From assembly GCA_021794835.1 (NCBI GenBank), contig JAJYQA010000028.1, positions 1 through 64,000 of the forward strand: 64,000 nucleotides of DNA. Direction: 5' to 3'. Origin of the DNA: Actinomycetes bacterium (lineage in GTDB: Bacteria > Actinomycetota > Aquicultoria > Aquicultorales > Aquicultoraceae). A program made the position numbers and the translations under genes. Positions 29,393 to 61,228 of the stretch are shown one piece after another. The notes under the pieces are model-generated. The model ran no database searches and had not been told where the DNA came from. It was given only the letters and a program-made list of their open reading frames with translations. Position 1 is the first letter of the stretch, and the number at the start of each line of letters is the position of its first letter.

Positions 29393-29597
29393 GCATAGAT
29401 TTATCTATTTTAACATAAACTAGTGCCCTGTCACACTCGTGCTTTAATTGTTTAATTTTTGGCATACTTGCCAAAGTTCCAAGAAAAGGTTATACTACAG
29501 AGCATAGTAATTAGTTTATTGCTATATAGGAGATAGCTTTGGAGAGATTTGTAATAAATAATTCTGGCTCCTGAATTCTGTTCCTTAGGGGTTGAAT

Positions 29598-30017
29598 GTG
29601 AAAAGGTTTAAGGTAATCAATTTTAGGCCAAGCGAACTAGGAATAAGAAAAGTACTCGGTGATCTAGAGGCCGATATCATGGAGCTTGTCTGGCAGAAGG
29701 GAATAGCCAGCGTGCGCGAGATTCACGAGATACTTGAGGGGAATCGCGCTATTGCGTACACAACTGTAATGACCGTTATGAGCCGCCTTTCCGACAAAGG
29801 TATCCTAGAAAAGGAGCTTGATGGTAAGCACTATTTGTATAAGCCTGCAGTAAGCAAGGAAGAGCTCAGCCAGACGATGTTCACCTCCGTTATCAATGGG
29901 CTTAAATCAGACCTAGGGTCGCAGGCGCTGGCCTTTTTTGTGAATAGCCTAAGCGAGGACGACTCTACACTTGACGAGCTTGAGAGACTGATCCAGGAAA
30001 AAAGGAAACGTTCCTAG
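29598..30017 (+). CDS. BlaI/MecI/CopY-family transcriptional repressor
   Basis: The 139-residue protein has the family's winged helix: LGDLEADIMELVWQKGIASV, VREIHEILEGNR, YTTVMTVMSRLSDKGILEKE and the wing GKHYLYKPAVSKEEL. A C-terminal dimerisation helix follows. Members repress beta-lactamase or copper-export genes. Its place in a copper island beside CsoR and CopA suggests a CopY-like role, but it lacks a C-terminal CxC copper motif. The GTG at 29598 is preferred over TTG at 29592 because AGGGG lies seven bases ahead. Confidence 0.8.
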   Translation: MKRFKVINFRPSELGIRKVLGDLEADIMELVWQKGIASVREIHEILEGNRAIAYTTVMTVMSRLSDKGILEKELDGKHYLYKPAVSKEELSQTMFTSVINGLKSDLGSQALAFFVNSLSEDDSTLDELERLIQEKRKRS

Positions 30018-30070
30018 TGGCTAGTCTTCCGTCGAGAAATCCCAGGCTTTCCGATAGCTAGGTCATCCCG

Positions 30071-30355
30071 ATGTTGGCATATATAAAGCCATCAGGTAAA
30101 CTCTTTACAAGGGTAAGTTTATGTCCACCATGTCAGTCCAAGAAGCAGTATCTTGAGCCAGACGGCACGCTTACCCGCAGTTCATGTGGTACGAAGCGTA
30201 ATCCCGAGACACAGGTTGGTGCTTCTGGGGCGTGTAGGCTTTATCCGCTTGATGAGATGCCGCATAAGCTGGTGGGAGACAAGATCGAAATAGCCGAAGC
30301 TTCTTTAGCCAAGTGGGTACCGCAACCACTGGATAGGCCGGTAGGCGGGCAGTAG
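30071..30355 (+). CDS. Hypothetical Cys-containing small protein
   Basis: A 94-residue frame starts at ATG 30071 without a clear ribosome-binding site. It contains a CPPC motif (VSLCPPCQSKK) and two more cysteines (SSCGTK, SGACRL), which might bind a metal. No membrane segment is evident. It lies between the BlaI-type regulator and the membrane protein at 30391 in the same direction. I do not recognise a family and the frame could be spurious. Confidence 0.35.
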   Translation: MLAYIKPSGKLFTRVSLCPPCQSKKQYLEPDGTLTRSSCGTKRNPETQVGASGACRLYPLDEMPHKLVGDKIEIAEASLAKWVPQPLDRPVGGQ

Positions 30356-30390
30356 TTTTCAAAGGTTTCTTACGACTAAGGAGGGAGTTG

Positions 30391-30894
30391 ATGAGAGAGA
30401 ATAGGGCTGATGAGTTTGTAGGTGAGGCTTCTGAGAGTACGGTTGCAGTCAATGTAAAACACCAGGTTGTAAAGTACGTAGCGATGTGGTTCGCGCTTGT
30501 CGCCGCCTTCTTTATCCTTAATGTGGCTGTAGAGTCGGTAGTGGCGTCAAGAAGCGCGGATGTTTTCCAAGGTGGCTACTACGCCTGTAGCCAGCTGGCA
30601 TTAGACCGCCCCGACATGCAAAACGGCGTCTATACCCGTGGCGTTTTTGGCAACTGCTACGCAAACGGCGGACCAGTAGGTGCGGGCGGTGGTTACTGTT
30701 GCGGCGGTGCGGCTCCGGCTGTGGGCGGCAGTGTTGGTTATAAACAGTTGGAACGGGCTGCAATTAATTGGTATGTCCAAAACTACGGGGATGCTGACGT
30801 AATGGCCGAAATCAAGGACTTTGGCTGCCACCAGCAGATAAATATCTTAAAAGACGGCAAAGTTGTAGTTGATATAAAGGCGAAGGTCGAATAA
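30391..30894 (+). CDS. Membrane-anchored protein of unknown function in the copper island
   Basis: The 167-residue product starts at ATG 30391 after a GGAGGGAGTT site. One membrane helix (about residues 29-50) is followed by an outer part rich in Gly, Cys and aromatic residues (GGGYCCGGAAPAVGG). A C-terminal alpha/beta stretch reads YGDADVMAEIKDFGCHQQIN. The cysteine pairs and CH motif could bind copper or another soft metal, but this is not established. Position between the BlaI-type regulator and csoR/copA suggests a part in metal handling. Confidence 0.6.
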   Translation: MRENRADEFVGEASESTVAVNVKHQVVKYVAMWFALVAAFFILNVAVESVVASRSADVFQGGYYACSQLALDRPDMQNGVYTRGVFGNCYANGGPVGAGGGYCCGGAAPAVGGSVGYKQLERAAINWYVQNYGDADVMAEIKDFGCHQQINILKDGKVVVDIKAKVE

Positions 30895-30904
30895 AGTGCT
30901 GCTC

Positions 30905-31180
30905 TTAGGTTCTAACAAAGCGCTCGATTACGTCCATTAGCTCCCGGATGGTGGCATCCTCGCCCCCATTTTTGAGGGCATTTTTTACACAGCCTTTGAT
31001 ATGGTCGTCGAGGATGATGAAACCTACCCTTTGCGTTGCACCCAAGACAGAGGATACCTGTACCAGGATATCTACACAGTACTTATCCTCCTTAACCATG
31101 CGCTGGATACCCCGGAGCTGGCCTTCAATACGCTTTAGCCTTGATAAAATTTTATCTTTGTCTTCTGAGTATGACGCCAT
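30905..31180 (-). CDS. csoR: Copper-sensing repressor CsoR
   Basis: The 91-residue protein is a typical all-helical CsoR. RLKRIEGQLRGIQRMV forms the first helices, and the copper site residues are present as Cys in KYCVDIL and His-x3-Cys in DDHIKGC. It binds operator DNA without copper and releases it when Cu(I) is bound. The ATG at 31180 (MASYSEDK) with GAGGTAAC upstream is preferred over a start 19 codons earlier, which would overlap the operator. It is divergent from copA, with operator-like sequences in the shared promoter region. Confidence 0.9.
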   Translation of the reverse strand: MASYSEDKDKILSRLKRIEGQLRGIQRMVKEDKYCVDILVQVSSVLGATQRVGFIILDDHIKGCVKNALKNGGEDATIRELMDVIERFVRT

Positions 31181-31192
31181 ATAGTTACCTCG

Positions 31193-31237
31193 GTATACAT
31201 ATACCCCCATTATTATGGAAAGAGGCGTTGGCGTCAA
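31193..31237 (-). promoter_or_regulatory. csoR promoter with CsoR-like operator
   Basis: On the minus strand TTGACG (31237-31232), a 16-base spacer and TAATAA (31215-31210) form a promoter. Immediately downstream the sequence ATGGGGGTATATGTATACC includes the inverted pair GGTAT/ATACC and the GGGGGTATAT word shared with the ccdA box. This arrangement fits autoregulation. Confidence 0.5.
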
Positions 31238-31326: not shown

Positions 31327-31411
31327 CTAGTAAAGTTATAGAATAAAAACCGTAATCTAAGTTTTTTTACATGCCTGTTTTTAAGATAGATGTAGGGGGT
31401 AAGGAAAAGCG

Positions 31412-33865
31412 GTGGCGGAAAAATATACTCTGCCGATCACGGGCATGACTTGAGCTTCATGTGTGCGCCGCGTGGAAACGGCGCTCGGGACAGCTCAGGG
31501 CATAAAAAGCGCAAACGTAAGTTTGGCAAGCCAGAAAGCAATCATTGAGGTTGAGGAAGGCAGTAACGTAAGTATTTCTGACCTGGTAAAGGCGGTTGAG
31601 GATTCGGGTTACCATGTCCCGGTTGAGGAGATTGCCATACCAATCGGTGGGATGACGTGCGCGTCCTGTGTAAGAAGGGTTGAACAGGCCCTGCTTAAAG
31701 TAAACGGCGTCGTCTTAGCTAACGTAAATTTGGCAACTGAAAAGGGAACCGTAAAATATATATCCGAGATGGCCAGCCCGAGGGACTTAAAACAGGCGAT
31801 AATAAAGGCAGGCTACAAGGTAAGGGAGCCCGAAGGTGGGAGTACAGGCGCTCAGGTTAAAAGCGATAAGTCGCGAGACGAAGTCGGCCAACTGAAAAAA
31901 CGCCTTATTGTAGCTGCAGCATTAACGGTTATTGTAATGGTTGGAAGCATGCACGAGCTTATCCCCGCGCTTATGCTCATCCCGGATAAGATCCGCTATA
32001 TTATACTGCTTGCGCTTACCACCCCGGTTCAGTTCTGGGCGGGTTGGCGGTTTTACCGCGGGGCGTATCTTACTGCAAAACACGGCGGCACCGACATGAA
32101 TACACTGGTTGCTGTAGGTACATCGGTTGCATATGTATATAGTATCGCAGTCACCTTCTTCCCCGAGTTCTTCAAGGCTCAGGGGATTACGCCGGCCGTT
32201 TATTACGATACGGCAGCAACCATTATCACCTTGATTCTCTTTGGGAGGTACCTTGAGGCCAAAGCTAAGGGGCATGCCTCAGATGCAATAAAGAAACTTT
32301 TGGGCCTGCAGCCTAAGACGGGCCGCATTGTAAAAGATGGTGAGGAGTTGGATATCCCAATTGAGGATATCCAGGTCGGAGACATTGTGTTGGTTCGACC
32401 CGGTAAAAAAGTTCCGGTCGATGGCGTTGTGACTGAGGGATACTCCTCGGTTGACGAATCGGTGATTACCGGCGAGAGCATTCCGGCTGAAAAACGTGAG
32501 GGTGACGAGGTAATCGGTGCAACCATCAATAAAACTGGCTCGTTTAAGTTTAGGGCGACCAAGGTGGGCAGCGAGACCGCGCTTGCGCAGATTGTGAGGC
32601 TTGTTGAGGAAGCACAGGGATCTAAAGCCCCGATCCAGAGACTTGCCGACGTCGTGGCAAGCTACTTTGTCCCGACAGTTATATCAATTGCAGTTTTAAC
32701 TTTTATTATTTGGATGATATTTGGGCCGAAGCCGGCCTTCACGGTTGCGCTCCTAAACTTTATCGCGGTCTTGATTATTGCTTGCCCGTGCTCACTGGGT
32801 CTGGCAACGCCGACTGCTATTATGGTTGGGACAGGCCAGGGCGCGCAAAACGGTATCCTAATAAGGGATGCCCAAGCCTTGGAGAACGCGCATAAGATAA
32901 ACACAATTATTTTGGATAAGACGGGCACACTCACGCAGGGTAAGCCAGCGGTGACCGATATTGTCGGAAGCAACGGCTTTACCGAGGCTGATGTGTTGAG
33001 GTTTGCCGCATCTGCCGAGAGGGGATCTGAACATCCCCTGGGCGAGGCTATTGTGACAAGGGCCAAGGAAATGAGTCTTGCGCTTACTGAGCCAAGTAAC
33101 TTTGAGTCCTTCACCGGGCGCGGTATCGGCGCAGACGTCGACGGTCATTCTATTGTTATGGGTAACTCGCGTTTGATGGAAGATCGCGGTATTGTGCTTG
33201 ACGGCGCGCTTGAGCGTGTGCTTTCCCTATCTGGTGAAGGAAAGACCCCGATGCTTGTTGCGGTTGATTCAAGAATTGCCGGGATTATTGCAGTTGCCGA
33301 TATCCTTAAGCCAAACTCGGCTACGGCGGTTAAAAGGCTTCACGAGATGGGTCTTGAAGTCGTCATGCTGACCGGAGATAACGAAAGAACTGCTGCGGCG
33401 ATTGCAAGGCAGGCCGGTGTAGATCGCGTGCTGGCCGAGGTTCTTCCGGCAGATAAGGCAATTGAGGTAAAACGCCTGCAAGAAGAGGGCAAGATAGTTG
33501 CAATGGTAGGCGATGGTATAAACGATGCGCCGGCCCTGGCGCAGGCCGATATCGGCATTTCGATTGGCACCGGAACCGACGTTGCAATTGAGGCATCAGA
33601 CATCACGCTAGTGGGCGGAGATTTACAGGGTCTAGTAACGGCGATTGCCTTAAGCCGTAAGACGCTAAAGACGATTTACCAGAATTTATTCTGGGCGTTT
33701 GTCTATAACGCTGTCTTGATACCGGTGGCCGCGGGCGCGCTTTACCCGATATGGCATATTAAACTAAATCCAATGCTTGCCGCGCTTGCGATGGCATTTA
33801 GCTCGGTCTCGGTTGTTTCTAACTCGCTTAGGCTAAAACGGTTTAAGGCACCAAGGGCCGGTTAA
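31412..33865 (+). CDS. copA: Cu(I)-exporting P1B-type ATPase CopA, putative selenoprotein (Sec14)
   Basis: The ATPase exports Cu(I). From GTG 31412 (AAGGA at 31401-31405) the frame encodes two HMA metal-binding domains. HMA2 has the normal GMTCASC (about residue 86). In HMA1 the same motif reads GMT-TGA-ASC: an in-frame TGA at 31451-31453 replaces the first copper-binding Cys. The core is intact: eight helices, CPC in [20 protein letters not shown] phosphorylation site, SEHPLGEA and [17 protein letters not shown] hairpin with a G in its loop starts 11 bases after the TGA and its loop 17 bases after, as required for selenocysteine insertion. If TGA were a stop, translation would have to restart at GTG 31463, which has no ribosome-binding site. 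Alternative: a nonsense mutation or sequence error. Confidence 0.75.
31451..31484 (+). promoter_or_regulatory. Candidate bacterial SECIS element in copA
   Basis: After TGA (31451-31453) the bases GCGCCG (31465-31470) and CGGCGC (31479-31484) form a perfect six-pair GC stem around the loop CGTGGAAA (31471-31478). The loop begins 17 bases after the TGA, has eight bases and a G in its second position. These values fall within the ranges used to define bacterial SECIS elements. The equivalent bases in the second HMA domain (Cys codon TGC) form no such hairpin. Confidence 0.6.
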
Positions 33866-55703: not shown

Positions 55704-56366
55704 ATGGATTTAGCTCCAATCTGGCTATCTATTAGGGTATCAATAATAGCTGTGGGCGTAGTTTTTATAGTTGGCACCGGCCTGGCAGTTGTCCTGCAGC
55801 GCTATTCATTTCGTGGCCGAACTATTATTGAGGCTTTGGTTATGCTGCCGCTAGTTCTCCCACCTACGGTTGCCGGCTTCTTTCTGCTGCTCTTGCTTGG
55901 TAAAAACGGGCCTCTTGGCCGCCTGCTTAATTACTTTGGAATTCAAATTATTTTCTCCTGGTGGGCGGCCACGATCGCCTCTATGGTAGTTGCGCTACCG
56001 CTCATGTATCAGGGCGTGAAATCCTCACTTGAATCGGTCGACTTAAACCTTGAGCAAGTAGCGCGCACGTTGGGGGCCGGGGAGGCAAGGGTTTTGCGCA
56101 CTATTACCCTGCCACTTTCTTGGCCGGGAATTGTCTCAGGCGTTGTCATGGCTTTTACCCGCTCGCTGGGGGAGTTTGGGGCGACCCTTATGGTTGCCGG
56201 CAATATTCCCGGAAAGACGCAGACTATTCCGGTTGCCGTATACTCTTTCGCTTCGTCAGGAGATATGGCAGGCGCAGGCTACATGGTGATGATTCTAGTG
56301 GCGGTAAGCTTTTCGCTTGTGTTTGCCGTAAGTGCTTGGAGAAGGAAATTCATACGCTGGTACTGA
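55704..56366 (+). CDS. modB: Molybdate ABC transporter permease
   Basis: The 220-residue protein has five membrane helices and the permease-ATPase contact loop (EQVARTLGAGEARVLRTITL, PLSWPGIVSGVVMAFTRSLG, EFGATLMVAGNIPGKTQTIP), typical for ModB. It forms the membrane channel of the molybdate importer. It lies 48 bases after modA and four bases before modC. Confidence 0.93.
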   Translation: MDLAPIWLSIRVSIIAVGVVFIVGTGLAVVLQRYSFRGRTIIEALVMLPLVLPPTVAGFFLLLLLGKNGPLGRLLNYFGIQIIFSWWAATIASMVVALPLMYQGVKSSLESVDLNLEQVARTLGAGEARVLRTITLPLSWPGIVSGVVMAFTRSLGEFGATLMVAGNIPGKTQTIPVAVYSFASSGDMAGAGYMVMILVAVSFSLVFAVSAWRRKFIRWY

Positions 56367-56369
56367 TAC

Positions 56370-57062
56370 ATGTTACGAGTGCAATTTGAAACAAGACTAA
56401 CCAACTTTATATTAAAGACCGACATTGTCGCGGAGAATAAAATCCTGGTCTTATTTGGCCCTTCCGGCAGCGGCAAAAGCACGATTCTTAAAATGATTGC
56501 GGGGCTCGCGATGCCGCAAAACGGTCTTATTAAGCTTAATGGCAGGATATTATTTTCTTCTGCCGACCGGATCAAGGTTAAGCCGCAATTTCGCAACATA
56601 GGGTTTGTTCCTCAGGATTACGCGTTGTTCCCGCACCTGACAGTAAAGGACAATGTCGGCTACGGCATTGTTAGGAAAATAAATCCCGGCGACTATGAAT
56701 CCAGAATCCTTCAAATGCTTGAGACTGTGAGAATCGCCCACTTGAAAGACCGGTTCCCCAAACAACTCTCCGGCGGCGAGGCCCAGCGCGTTGCTTTGGC
56801 AAGAGCGCTTATTACCGAGCCCGCGCTCTTGCTTCTTGATGAGCCGTTGTCTGCGCTTGATGCCGACTTAAAATTAGAGCTTCAGGAAGAACTCTATGGC
56901 TTGCAAAAACAGTGGAATATTCCTTTTGTTTTAGTAACCCACGACTACCGGGAAGTCGAGAGGCTAGAAGCCGGTCGGGCAAGGCTTACCATGGCGGACG
57001 AAGTGCATAAATTTACCTTCTCGGAGACCGACAGGCCAAAGGTCAATACTTTAAAGCTTTAA
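56370..57062 (+). CDS. modC: Molybdate ABC transporter ATP-binding protein
   Basis: ATPase of the ModABC importer: Walker A GPSGSGKST, Q-loop FVPQDYALFPHLTV, signature LSGGEAQRVALARAL, Walker B LLLLDEPLSALD and the His switch VTHDYREVERL. It is short (230 residues) and lacks the C-terminal Mop/TOBE molybdate-sensing domain of E. coli ModC. Its TAA overlaps the stop codon of the formate dehydrogenase gene on the other strand. Confidence 0.92.
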   Translation: MLRVQFETRLTNFILKTDIVAENKILVLFGPSGSGKSTILKMIAGLAMPQNGLIKLNGRILFSSADRIKVKPQFRNIGFVPQDYALFPHLTVKDNVGYGIVRKINPGDYESRILQMLETVRIAHLKDRFPKQLSGGEAQRVALARALITEPALLLLDEPLSALDADLKLELQEELYGLQKQWNIPFVLVTHDYREVERLEAGRARLTMADEVHKFTFSETDRPKVNTLKL

Positions 57063-60000
57063 GCTTTCTCAATTTTAACTGCGCACACTTTAAACTCCGG
57101 TGTCTTGGAAACCGGGTCCGCAGCCCGATTGGTAAGCAGGTTTGCCGGCGAGTCGGCATAATGGAAGGGCATTGAAACAAGGCCCTGCAGGATGGTATCT
57201 GTTACAACCGCAGTTGCCGTAATACGCCCGCGCCGGCTCTCCACCGCTACCATATCGCCGTGCACAATGCCAAGTTTTGCCGCGTCATTCGGGTGTATCT
57301 CTACCCAATTGTGCGGGGCAAGCGCGTTTAGCCCTTCCGATTTTCCGGTCATGGTGCGCGTGTGGTAATGCCAGAGATTTCGCCCGGTTGTAAGCATAAG
57401 CGGATACTCGCTATCGGGTTCTTCGGCAGAAGATCGGTGTTCAATCTCATGGAAAAGCCCTCTTCCTCTGGTGAATGTTCCGGTGTGAAGAATCGGCGTT
57501 CCGGGATGGTCCTCTGCGGGACACGGCCACTGGATGCCACCTGACTCCAATCTTGCGTAAGAGATACCCTTAAAACTTGGCGTAAGCTGCCCTACTTCTT
57601 CCATTATCTCTTCGGCCGAGTTATAACGCATAGGATATCCCATCGCAAGCGAAAGTTCAGAGATGATCTGCCAATCAGGCTTGGCGTTGCCTGGCGGTTC
57701 AGTTGCTTTTCGTATCCTTTGTACCCTTCGCTCGGTATTCGTATAGGTGCCGTCCTTTTCTCCGAACGATGCGGCCGGGAGCACAACATCGGCAAGCTGC
57801 GCCGTCTCGGTTAAAAAGATATCCTGGACCACCAGGAAATCCAGGCTCTTGAGCGATTGCTCAACATGGTGGGTATCCGGGTCCGCAAGCATGGGGTTCT
57901 CTCCCATTATATACATAGCTTTTAGTTCACACGATGCAGCCTTTTCCATCATGTCGGTTTCTGTTAAGCCGGGTTTTGAGGGAAGTGTAACACCCCAGGC
58001 CTTTTCAAACTTGGCCCGTGCCGCATTATCATCAACTCTTTGGTAACCAGGGAGAACGTTCGGCAGGCCGCCCATATCGCACGCGCCTTGCACGTTGTTC
58101 TGGCCTCTTAACGGATTTACGCCGGCTCCCCGTTTCCCGATGTTTCCGGTCATCATGGCGAGGTTGGCGATTGCAAGGACATTGTCGGTGCCGGTTACGT
58201 GTTCGGTTATCCCCAACGTATAGCATATGATCGCCCTATCGGCGGCCCCGTACATTCGTGCCGCTTTTCGGATATCCTCGGCCGGCACCCCGGTTATTTT
58301 CTCGACGGCATCAGGGGTGTATTTGGGAAGAATCGCCTTAAGTGCTTCAAAGCCTTCGGTCCTTTGGGCAATAAAGTCGTGGTCGACAAGGTCCTCTCCG
58401 AGGATTACGTTCATTATTCCGTTAAGCAAAGCGATATTCGTCCCTGGTTTTATCTGAAGCCACACGTCGGCAAAATCAACGAGCCTGATCCGCCTGGGGT
58501 CGACTATGATAAGCTTAGCCCCATACTCGCGCACCGCTTTCTTTATCTGAAACCCTATGATGGGGTGCGCCTCGGTTGTGTTTGTGCCGATGGCAAATAT
58601 AACCGAAGCATCGAGCATATCGTCGATTGAATTGGTCATTGCACCGCTTCCAAACGCTTTGGCCAGACCGACCACGGTTGGGGCGTGTCACAACCTGGCG
58701 CAATTATCGACATTGTTCGTGCCGATAACCGCCCGCATAAACTTTTGGAAGACATAATTATCTTCGTTAGTGCATCTACCCGAAGTCCGACCGCCAATGG
58801 CGCCGGGCCCATATAGCTCTTTTATTTTGGAAAACCTCTCCGCAACTAGGCTTAAAGCCTCATCCCAGGATGCTTCAACAAGCCCGCCGCCCTTGCGGAT
58901 GAGGGGGGTTCTCAGGCGGGTCGGATGGTTGATGAAATGATAGCCAAAGCGGCCCTTTCCGCAGAGATTGCCTTTGTTTACGCTTTCTGCTGGCTCAGTT
59001 GTAACTTTAAATACCTTTCCCGTGCGGTCGGTATTTAGCTCAAGCTGGCAGCCGACCCCGCAATAAGTGCAGGTGGTGGGCGTGACTTGGGGCGGCCAGA
59101 AGAATTCCCGCTCGAACTTGCGCTTATTCTCGACCAGGGCTGCCGTTGGGCAGGCCGATATGCACTGGCCGCACGCTTCGCACTTGGTCTCCGATAGCGG
59201 GATGTTGCCAACGGGCACGATATCGTTTTCGGCTTTTCGGTATTCAAGCGCACCTACGCCGACAACCTCGTCGCAAATCTGCACACATTTTTCGCATTGG
59301 ATACATTTATTCTGGTCACGAAGGACAATCGGGTGGCTTTTATCCACCTTGTAGTGGCGCATGGCCTCATAATTTTTGTTCGGCTCGATCTCGTATTCAA
59401 TTGCCAGGTTGCGAAGGTCACAGTCGTTTTGTTTAACACAGCCACACTCAAGGCAGCGCTGGGCCTCTTTTAATGCGTCCTCTTCACTAAATCCAAGTTC
59501 AATCTCGGTGAAGTTGCCCAAAACCTGGCGTTTGAGCAACTTAAGCTCAGGCATGGGTGTGCGGGCCGTTGAAGGCACATCGAGGTCTTCTTTAGTAATC
59601 CCTCTGCGGACTGCGCTGAACGGCTTTGCCAAACCTGAGCTTTCATCATCTGTTAAATATTGATTAATAGTATGGGCTGCTTCCGGGCTGCCGTCAGACC
59701 AAACCTTCCAATTAGGTGGGGATAGTAAATATTGGTTGATGATCTGGGCTGCTCTTCGCCCGCCCGCTACCGCCTTAATAGCTACATCTGGGCTGCTTAC
59801 TGCATCGCCGGCCGCAAACACGCCGGGAACTGTGGTCTGCATCGTCTTTACGTTAATTCCTATCGTTTTGCCGATCAGGGTGATTTCGGCTCCCTCTGCG
59901 GTGACCACCTGCCCAACCGCTGTTATTAAATTATCCACCGCAAGGACAAACTCGCTGCCGGGCTCAGGTCTGATGCTAGGACGCCCTGACGCGTCGGGGT

Positions 60001-61228
60001 CGCCAAGCGCCATTCGGATACACTCTATACCCTCAACCCTGTCGGATCCGATAACCCGAATAGGGCTGGTTAAGAATATAAATTCAACGCCCTCTCGCTC
60101 GGCCTCTTCGATTTCCAGGTCGTTAGCCGGCATCTGATCGCGGGTCCGCCTGTAAATAAGGTAGACTTTTTCCACTCCGAGGCGAAGTGCGGTACGCGCC
60201 GAGTCTATCGCCACATTGCCTCCACCCATTACCGCAACTCTCTTGCCCAGCTCTACCTTTCCCTGTAAACTTACACTCCGCAAGAAGTTGATGCCCCTGA
60301 TAACACCCTTAATGTCATCATTTTCTATATGTGCTCTCTCTCCAGCCTGCGCACCTAATCCCAGAAAAACCGCGTCATAGCTGCTCTGTAGCTCATCTAA
60401 AGTAAGGTCTCTACCCAGGCGGTGATCAGTACGGATATCCACGCCAAGTTCAAAAAGCTGGTTTATCTCGTCGTCAAGAATGTCTTTTGGCAGGCGATAT
60501 GAGGGGATACCGTAGCGGAGCATGCCGCCTGGTTGGGGCATTGCCTCAAAGATAACCGTCTTATGCCCCTCAATAGCAAGGTAATAAGCTGCCGTAAGGC
60601 CCGCGGCCCCGCTGCCCACTATAGCGACTTTCTTGCCGGTTGGTAGTTTTACAGCTGGTTTGAAGTGCGTATCCGACAACCTGTCCATATCGGCGGCAAA
60701 GCGCTTAAGCCAGCATATGCTTACGCTGCCTCCCGCCAGGTTGCGCCGGCAGGCGTCCTCGCAGGGGCGCGTGCAGATGCGCCCAATAATCCCCGGAAAC
60801 GGGTTGGTTTGTTTTATAAGTTCGATTGCGTCCCGGTAGCGTTTCTGGGCAATCAGGCCGATATAGCCCTGGACATCGGTGCCGGCCGGGCAGGCCAGGG
60901 TGCACGGGGCGATGCAATCTGCCCAGTGGTCGGCAAACATTTCCTCAAGGCGCCTCTTCCGTATATCTTTTAACGCTTCTGTGCTGGTGTTGACAACCAT
61001 ACCGTCAGAGATTTTAGTTTTGCAGGCTTTAACCGGACTGCTTACCCCGGCAACCTCAACCACGCACATACCGCACTTTGCCCCGGGCTTTAACCGTGGA
61101 TCGTAGCATAGGTGAGGGATGCTGAGGCCGTTGGCAAGCGCGGCCTCGAGTATGGTCTGGTTCTCTTTGGCCCGGTAATGCTTGCCATCAATTTTAATGT
61201 TTAAACTTATTCTAACTATCGTTTCCAT
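57059..61228 (-). CDS. fdhA: Selenocysteine formate dehydrogenase fused to a GltD-like NAD(P)H module
   Basis: One chain of 1389 residues. The order is: NuoG-like 2Fe-2S domain (CYDPRL...CGMC), GltD-type 4Fe-4S and flavin domain (CTLACPAGTD, VAIVGSGAAGLTAAYYLA), a NAD(P)H-binding site (VAVMGGGNVAIDSARTAL), ferredoxin clusters (CIQCEKCVQIC, CEACGQCISACP), then the molybdopterin oxidoreductase with TCTYCGVGC and LCGKGRFG. The active site reads NCARL-Sec-HAPTV at residue 847, codon TGA at 58690-58688, exactly where known formate dehydrogenases have Sec or Cys. It should oxidise formate, or reduce CO2, with NAD(P). It ends opposite modC, which supplies molybdate. Confidence 0.93.
58660..58690 (-). 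promoter_or_regulatory. SECIS element of fdhA
   Basis: On the minus strand, after TGA (58690-58688), TGGTC (58674-58670) and GGCCA (58664-58660) pair around the loop GGTCT (58669-58665). The loop starts 18 bases after the TGA, as in Escherichia coli fdhF, which has the same GGUCU loop. Confidence 0.85.

Follow-up and report, generated by a model that had tools for sequence, protein, structure and literature searches.

The locus raises the question of whether a UGA codon interrupting an otherwise intact copper ATPase gene is a stop signal or specifies selenocysteine (Sec). In the window, by which we mean the whole 64,000-nucleotide stretch of an Actinomycetes bacterium contig that was analyzed, the copA frame runs from a GTG at 31412 to the stop codon at 33863–33865, and its translation of 817 residues contains a single internal stop, a TGA at codon 14. 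The TGA replaces the codon of the first copper-binding Cys in the N-terminal metal-binding domain HMA1 (GMT-U-ASC), and the second such domain, HMA2, has TGC. The initial annotation had described the gene in the same terms, as an intact CopA frame but for one TGA. When the TGA was taken as Cys, profile searches gave the product 637 bits for TIGR01511 and 668 bits for TIGR01525, the latter against a cut-off of 346, and Pfam placed in it two HMA domains, an actuator domain, and a HAD domain. The signatures of Cu(I) pumps, CPC in TM6, N-x6-YN-x4-P in TM7, and MxxSS in TM8, were present in 10/10 orthologues; the window CopA thus combines the profile scores and the three motifs by which P1B-1 Cu(I) ATPases are recognized from sequence. 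Its nearest solved structures by sequence are bacterial CopA (3j09 and 3rfu) and human ATP7B (7xuk). By its signatures, the protein is predicted to be a Cu(I) exporter, and the neighboring CsoR-family gene, which adjoined copA in all relatives checked, provides the export context. As a Shine–Dalgarno-like motif lies 6 nt before the GTG (Table 1), the predicted start of translation is upstream of the UGA.

Table 1. Coordinates of the features discussed, in the window and, in the last four rows, in Bacillota genomes
Feature	Position	Strand	Basis and remarks
CopY/BlaI-like repressor	29592..30017	+	TIGR02698 66.8 bits, below cut-off; PF03965
CsoR/RicR-family metal-sensing repressor, divergent	30905..31237	-	PF02583 101.5 bits; RicR model 91 bits, below cut-off
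AAGGA, Shine–Dalgarno-like, 6 nt before GTG 31412	31401..31405	+	Sequence; similar motifs upstream of orthologues
copA, predicted Cu(I)-exporting P1B-1 ATPase	31412..33865	+	817 aa with UGA as Sec (residue 14); TIGR01511, TIGR01525, Pfam
HMA1, predicted Sec-containing metal-binding domain	31424..31618	+	Two HMA stretches in PF00403
In-frame UGA (Sec14), first ligand position of the HMA1 motif GMT-U-ASC	31451..31453	+	TGA in 10/10 orthologues
Predicted SECIS hairpin GCGCCG[CGUGGAAA]CGGCGC	31465..31484	+	Within published bSECIS criteria; lowest synonymous divergence in gene
HMA2, Cys-type metal-binding domain, GMTCASC	31637..31819	+	PF00403; TGC in 10/10 orthologues
Cys-Pro-Cys of TM6, transmembrane Cu(I) site, ordinary Cys codons	32783..32791	+	Sequence, signature in orthologues
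Predicted UGA (Sec) codon of formate dehydrogenase alpha subunit (57059-61228)	58688..58690	-	Sequence, hairpin
G488, predicted Sec in HMA1, GMTUAAC			Hairpin CTGCTC[GGGTC]GAGCAG; cut by contig end
G481, predicted Sec in HMA1, GMTUAAC			Hairpin weak
G759, predicted Sec in HMA2			Hairpin TAGAAAG[GGTT]CTTTCTA
G798, predicted Sec in HMA2			Hairpin CGAAAG[AGTT]CTTTCG; cut by contig end

In comparison with genome G001 (L209 2696–8588), the interval from the CopY-like to the CsoR gene in the window (29592–30905) is without a peptidase-like gene, two FtsX-type permeases, and an ABC ATPase, and the FtrD-like protein encoded there is without its N-terminal half, with 94 aa vs. 229 aa in G001. The comparison makes a deletion beside copA in the window's genome, relative to G001, probable.

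We searched for copA orthologues in 99 genomes, consisting of the window's own and its relatives, and defined as close those with at least 72% identity over the gene, together with that of genome G007, which carries an internal deletion. Every close orthologue contained one TGA, and they came from ten genomes belonging to a single family, Candidatus Aquicultoraceae of the phylum Actinomycetota. The family consists of groundwater bacteria, and among the named records with the TGA are L051 (Ca. Aquicultor primus) and L062 (Ca. Aquicultor secundus). Protein identity among the orthologues is 72–90%, and in the codon alignment the TGA is found in 10/10, while codons 13, 15, 16, and 17 around it vary; the hairpin discussed below is kept along with it. 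Outside the family, the aligned codon was TGC or TGT in all homologues of the first fetched set. Selenoproteins are recognized by an in-frame UGA that stands where homologues have Cys and is kept across species, and this is the pattern found in copA. A single base separates TGC from TGA and could in principle have been misread or misassembled, but the same TGA recurs in ten genomes that come from several projects and were assembled separately; such an error is refuted for the family, and its chance of explaining the codon is practically nil. A scan of 396 Actinomycetota genomes for the pattern GMT-TGA-A-x-C returned the ten copA genes and one further match (G361), which has no HMA domain and is a chance hit. 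The G007 copA (Ca. Aquicultor secundus; L044/L206) has an in-frame internal deletion of ~65 residues, leaving query residues 498–562 unmatched, and retains both the UGA and the hairpin.

The hairpin was located where the initial annotation had placed it, with a 6-bp GC stem formed by GCGCCG (31465–31470) and CGGCGC (31479–31484), an 8-nt loop CGTGGAAA (31471–31478) with G at its second position, and 17 nt between the TGA and the loop. Published criteria for bacterial SECIS elements call for a loop of 3–9 nt, a stem of 4–16 bp, a distance of 16–37 nt from the UGA, and a minimum free energy (MFE) of at most −7.5 kcal/mol, with a G within the first two loop positions that is usually followed by G or U (PMC13188914). 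The copA hairpin lies within all of these limits, its G2 being followed by U and its MFE being −12.5 kcal/mol. It resembles the E. coli fdhF type of element (PMC13188914) in stem length, the G2 followed by U, the 17-nt spacing, and the MFE, whereas its loop, CGUGGAAA, is lineage-specific and unlike both the fdhF type and the loop of the formate dehydrogenase element in the same genome (GGUCU). When codons were resampled from the usage of the gene without changing the protein, a perfect 6-bp stem arose in the same register with P = 0.0055, and any SECIS-like hairpin within the allowed range with P = 0.12; about one-third of the Cys-type homologues could also fold into a hairpin with a stem score of at least 5. 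Since such a hairpin is only moderately unlikely by chance, in a single sequence it is weak evidence, and it is the conservation over ten species that makes the predicted element a strong one. Synonymous divergence in the hairpin codons 18–24 was 0.162, the lowest of 361 testable 7-codon windows, in comparison with a mean of 0.51 for the copA gene and 0.654 for the matching HMA2 codons of the same genes, and the loop sequence GTGGAAA was invariant in 10/10 orthologues. We found no compensatory changes in the hairpin across the ten orthologues, as the pairs are nearly invariant and no double changes occur, and G001 has a weaker stem only; the case for the hairpin is consequently one of invariance, not of covariation.

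The initial annotation had held that HMA2 is unable to form the hairpin. This was correct for the HMA2 of the window in the same register, but the HMA2 RNA can form other hairpins, and that of G004 forms a similar 5-bp hairpin beside a Cys codon. Four records of one genus (L022, L023, L025, and L026; genus g5) have LMTCASC in place of GMTCASC as the HMA2 motif. The codons of this motif, GTGCGCCGCGTGGA or close to it, look like the hairpin sequence of HMA1, as though the two domains had undergone gene conversion. A scan of the window with Rfam at gathering thresholds gave no match and missed the formate dehydrogenase SECIS as well, and is hence uninformative.

If the UGA were a real stop, either regulatory or a nonsense mutation, translation would end after 13 codons and could reinitiate at the GTG of codon 18 or 21, giving a CopA of 797–800 aa without a working HMA1. 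An ORF of 800 aa does start at GTG 31463, and the GTG at codon 21 is invariant in the ten species; on the other hand, two species have GTA or GTC at codon 18, and the invariance extends to CGC, GAA, ACG, and GCG codons, which initiation of translation would not require. Shine–Dalgarno-like sites, moreover, precede the upstream start. In the sequence past the UGA, pN/pS in HMA1 is 0.37, similar to 0.31 in HMA2 and lower than 0.62 in the linker, the core having 0.18. As HMA1 is under purifying selection like that on HMA2, it is predicted to be a working and translated domain, no relic behind a stop. Given also that the family has the Sec machinery, we consider a true stop followed by reinitiation very unlikely. 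The genetic code of the organism appears standard, since TGA terminates 11 of the 46 large ORFs in the window and is thus a normal stop elsewhere. A TGA found between 55704–56366 and 56370–57062 was considered as a Sec codon and rejected, being the real stop between a ModB-like and a ModC-like gene.

The search for the machinery itself gave a divided result, with selA, selB, selC, and selD found in the relatives but not in the window's own bin. This bin has 44 contigs and is 97.8% complete; its candidates for selB, selD, and tRNA-Sec turned out to be EF-Tu and other GTPases, a weak SelD-related protein, and tRNA-Ser/Cys and others. Among the ten other Ca. Aquicultoraceae members, nine had a SelB above the curated cut-off (352–415 bits), split over two contigs in G009, and nine had a tRNA-Sec of 73–77 bits that ARAGORN called as SeC(UCA); the one relative without either is G010, which is 77% complete. 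Both genes are present in 8/9 of the other genomes carrying the TGA-containing copA, and they are also present in G005, which has no close Sec-CopA orthologue. The cluster has the order selD-selA-selB-selC in the relatives with enough sequence, and in G001, where it was checked with profiles (SelA 640, SelB 415, and SelD 349 bits), it is adjoined by HypB, HypA, and TatC.

A genome without selB and selC had been named in advance as grounds for rejecting the Sec reading, and taken literally the window's own bin is such a genome. The species might have lost the sel genes, in which case its copA, and its formate dehydrogenase gene with it, would be fresh pseudogenes while the relatives still make the Sec-containing protein, and the failure to find four genes in a bin of that completeness speaks for such a loss. 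However, HypB and TatC are missing from the bin as well, and the 10.5-kb G001 contig with the sel genes, used as a DNA query against the bin, gave a 64-base match only, as expected of a lost contig. In several relatives the sel cassette is located on small contigs, and the copA frame of the window is otherwise intact and its hairpin perfect. Because hypB and tatC, neighbors of the cassette in G001, are absent together with the sel genes, the evidence points to a block missing from the assembly, a lost contig rather than a loss of selenocysteine, and we regard the loss of the machinery as highly improbable. The formate dehydrogenase of the same window, which the initial annotation had correctly recognized as a Sec enzyme, has a hairpin TGGTC[GGTCT]GGCCA 18 nt from its UGA; as a predicted selenoprotein needing the same machinery, it is an independent sign of Sec use by the organism. 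Its alpha subunit (57059–61228, minus strand) carries an N-terminal fusion to an NAD(P)-binding module like the glutamate synthase small subunit, and genes for a ModB/ModC-like molybdate transporter (55704–57062) adjoin it.

Beside the ordinary tRNA-Cys, the family has kept another tRNA-Cys(GCA), the body of which is tRNA-Sec-like (G000:C18:3673–3762, corresponding to L010; also L157, L158, L159, L160, and L162). This second tRNA has an 8-bp acceptor stem, a long variable arm, and U73, and some copies pair 8/5, not 8/4, in the acceptor and T arms. This extra tRNA resembles selC*-tRNA-Cys, a class listed for other phyla, and selC*-type tRNA-Cys with a UCA anticodon is known in other anaerobes (PMC7609411). 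A suppressor tRNA of this kind could decode the copA UGA as Cys or another ordinary residue, but in every copy seen the anticodon is GCA, which reads UGC and UGU, and UCA was not seen on the tRNA-Sec-like tRNA-Cys in any copy found, so we rejected L010 as a UGA suppressor. The relatives have a true tRNA-Sec(UCA) together with SelA, SelB, and SelD, UGA is otherwise a stop, and suppression by an ordinary tRNA is in our judgment extremely unlikely. The product of copA is very probably a selenocysteine-containing CopA, with Sec inserted at UGA codon 14 via SelB and the hairpin. The TGA kept in 10/10 orthologues, the SECIS-like element kept with it, the sel genes of the relatives, the purifying selection on HMA1, and the P1B-1 signatures all argue for this reading, which agrees with that of the initial annotation.

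The same substitution was found in a second phylum. A scan for the pattern GMT-TGA-A-x-C in 398 genomes of the phylum of a Bacillota record (L118) gave five matches, of which four were P1B ATPases; the other (L199) has no HMA domain and is a chance match. In these four Bacillota genomes, a Cu-type ATPase has its TGA at the same HMA-domain Cys, and 3/4 have clear hairpins of their own (Table 1). Next to the CopA fragment of G798, we found a ZntA-like ATPase with GVD-TGA-PEC and a hairpin GAGC[AGTT]GCTC, its loop AGTT being that of its neighbor. This Zn/Cd ATPase gene (L204 1–4000; G798:C193) directly adjoins the CopA with the HMA2 TGA and is located behind an ArsR-like regulator. The Bacillota are thereby predicted to have five further Sec metal-ATPase genes, with Sec in HMA1, in HMA2, or in a ZntA-type pump. 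When 106 ATPases were placed on a tree, the ten genes from Aquicultoraceae formed one fully supported clade. Its nearest neighbor was a same-class gene with Cys, and the two Bacillota Sec genes of full length were placed far from the clade, although the tree was a quick one and both Bacillota rows are on long branches. Given this placement, at least two changes are needed, and the occurrence of the predicted Sec in HMA1 in some genes and in HMA2 in others points the same way, to separate gains.

A selenoprotein named "cation-transporting ATPase E1-E2, UxxC," with ABB15669.1 as its representative, goes back to Zhang and Gladyshev (2007) as cited in PMC9312934 and PMC13188914, and according to these citing accounts, it was predicted in 2007–2008 from very few sequences. 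The GOS survey contained a single sequence of it and 882 Cys homologues (PMC2398784), and a 2026 review calls for more work on what Sec does in metal-resistance proteins of this type (PMC13188914). Like the window CopA, the published protein is a heavy-metal P1B ATPase with Sec for Cys in UxxC, known as a prediction only; the window CopA fits the class by its TIGR01525 domain and the motif U-A-S-C. In contrast to those very few sequences, it is fixed in a whole Actinomycetota family, with the exact site, the conservation of the hairpin, and the machinery documented. Ordinary CopA proteins (3j09, 3rfu, and 7r0g) share with it the HMA-HMA-TM-A-P/N order and the CPC, YN, and MxxSS motifs but have Cys in HMA1. 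The UxxU metal-binding (seleno)protein NF041115, Sec-containing MerP/MerT-like proteins, and SO_0444 Cu/Zn efflux proteins similarly have Sec in metal handling (PMC13188914, PMC2398784), yet they are small HMA proteins or other transporters and none is a P-type ATPase; the NF041115 model matches the window HMA domains with 76.8 bits, the cut-off being 95. The initial annotation knew of no characterized CopA of this kind. Our search of the open-access literature turned up neither a paper about a Sec CopA from Actinomycetota nor one describing its Sec site, but a UxxC ATPase of the P1B type had already been predicted. What is new at the level of sequence is the lineage-wide fixation, the exact predicted Sec site, and five more predicted Sec metal-ATPase genes in another phylum, and we regard the Sec-containing CopA as a well-supported, lineage-fixed candidate selenoprotein within a predicted family for which documentation is thin.

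The N-terminal HMA domains of CopA and ATP7 proteins receive cytosolic Cu(I) and regulate turnover. In the mechanism that we propose for the Aquicultoraceae pump, ribosomes would start at GTG 31412 and meet the UGA at codon 14, where SelB on the hairpin 17 nt downstream would deliver Sec-tRNA(Sec) and translation would run on to 817 residues. The resulting pump would pair Sec with Cys in HMA1 (GMT-Sec-ASC) and Cys with Cys in HMA2, and its membrane site would be CPC. The Sec would most likely serve as a Cu(I) ligand, forming a Cu-selenolate/thiolate site in the N-terminal domain that takes cytosolic copper and regulates the pump. As a selenolate is a softer and more acidic ligand than a thiolate, the selenol in HMA1 may bind Cu(I) tightly, and any kinetic or regulatory benefit may lie in improved binding or transfer of Cu(I) or in better recovery of an oxidized site. 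When selenium is lacking, translation should end after 13 residues, which would couple copper export to selenium supply, and copper defense in Ca. Aquicultoraceae probably depends on selenium. More broadly, Sec could be a recurrent ligand for Cu(I) and other soft metals in P1B ATPases, fixed a single time in HMA1 of the Ca. Aquicultoraceae CopA and separately gained in the CopA HMA1 or HMA2 and the ZntA-type pump of Bacillota, with a metal-selenolate site tuning export and the supply of selenium gating it; we hold the chances for and against this generalization to be evenly balanced.

Because standard gene calling reads UGA as a stop, it will truncate or split these copA genes. To our knowledge, in nearly all selenoproteins that are understood, the role of Sec is in redox catalysis. 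A family-wide Sec in the copper-receiving domain of an export pump would be a strong case of selection for Sec as a metal ligand, the sister domain HMA2, which keeps its Cys in the same protein, serving as a built-in control, and it would tie the copper defense of these bacteria to their selenium status.
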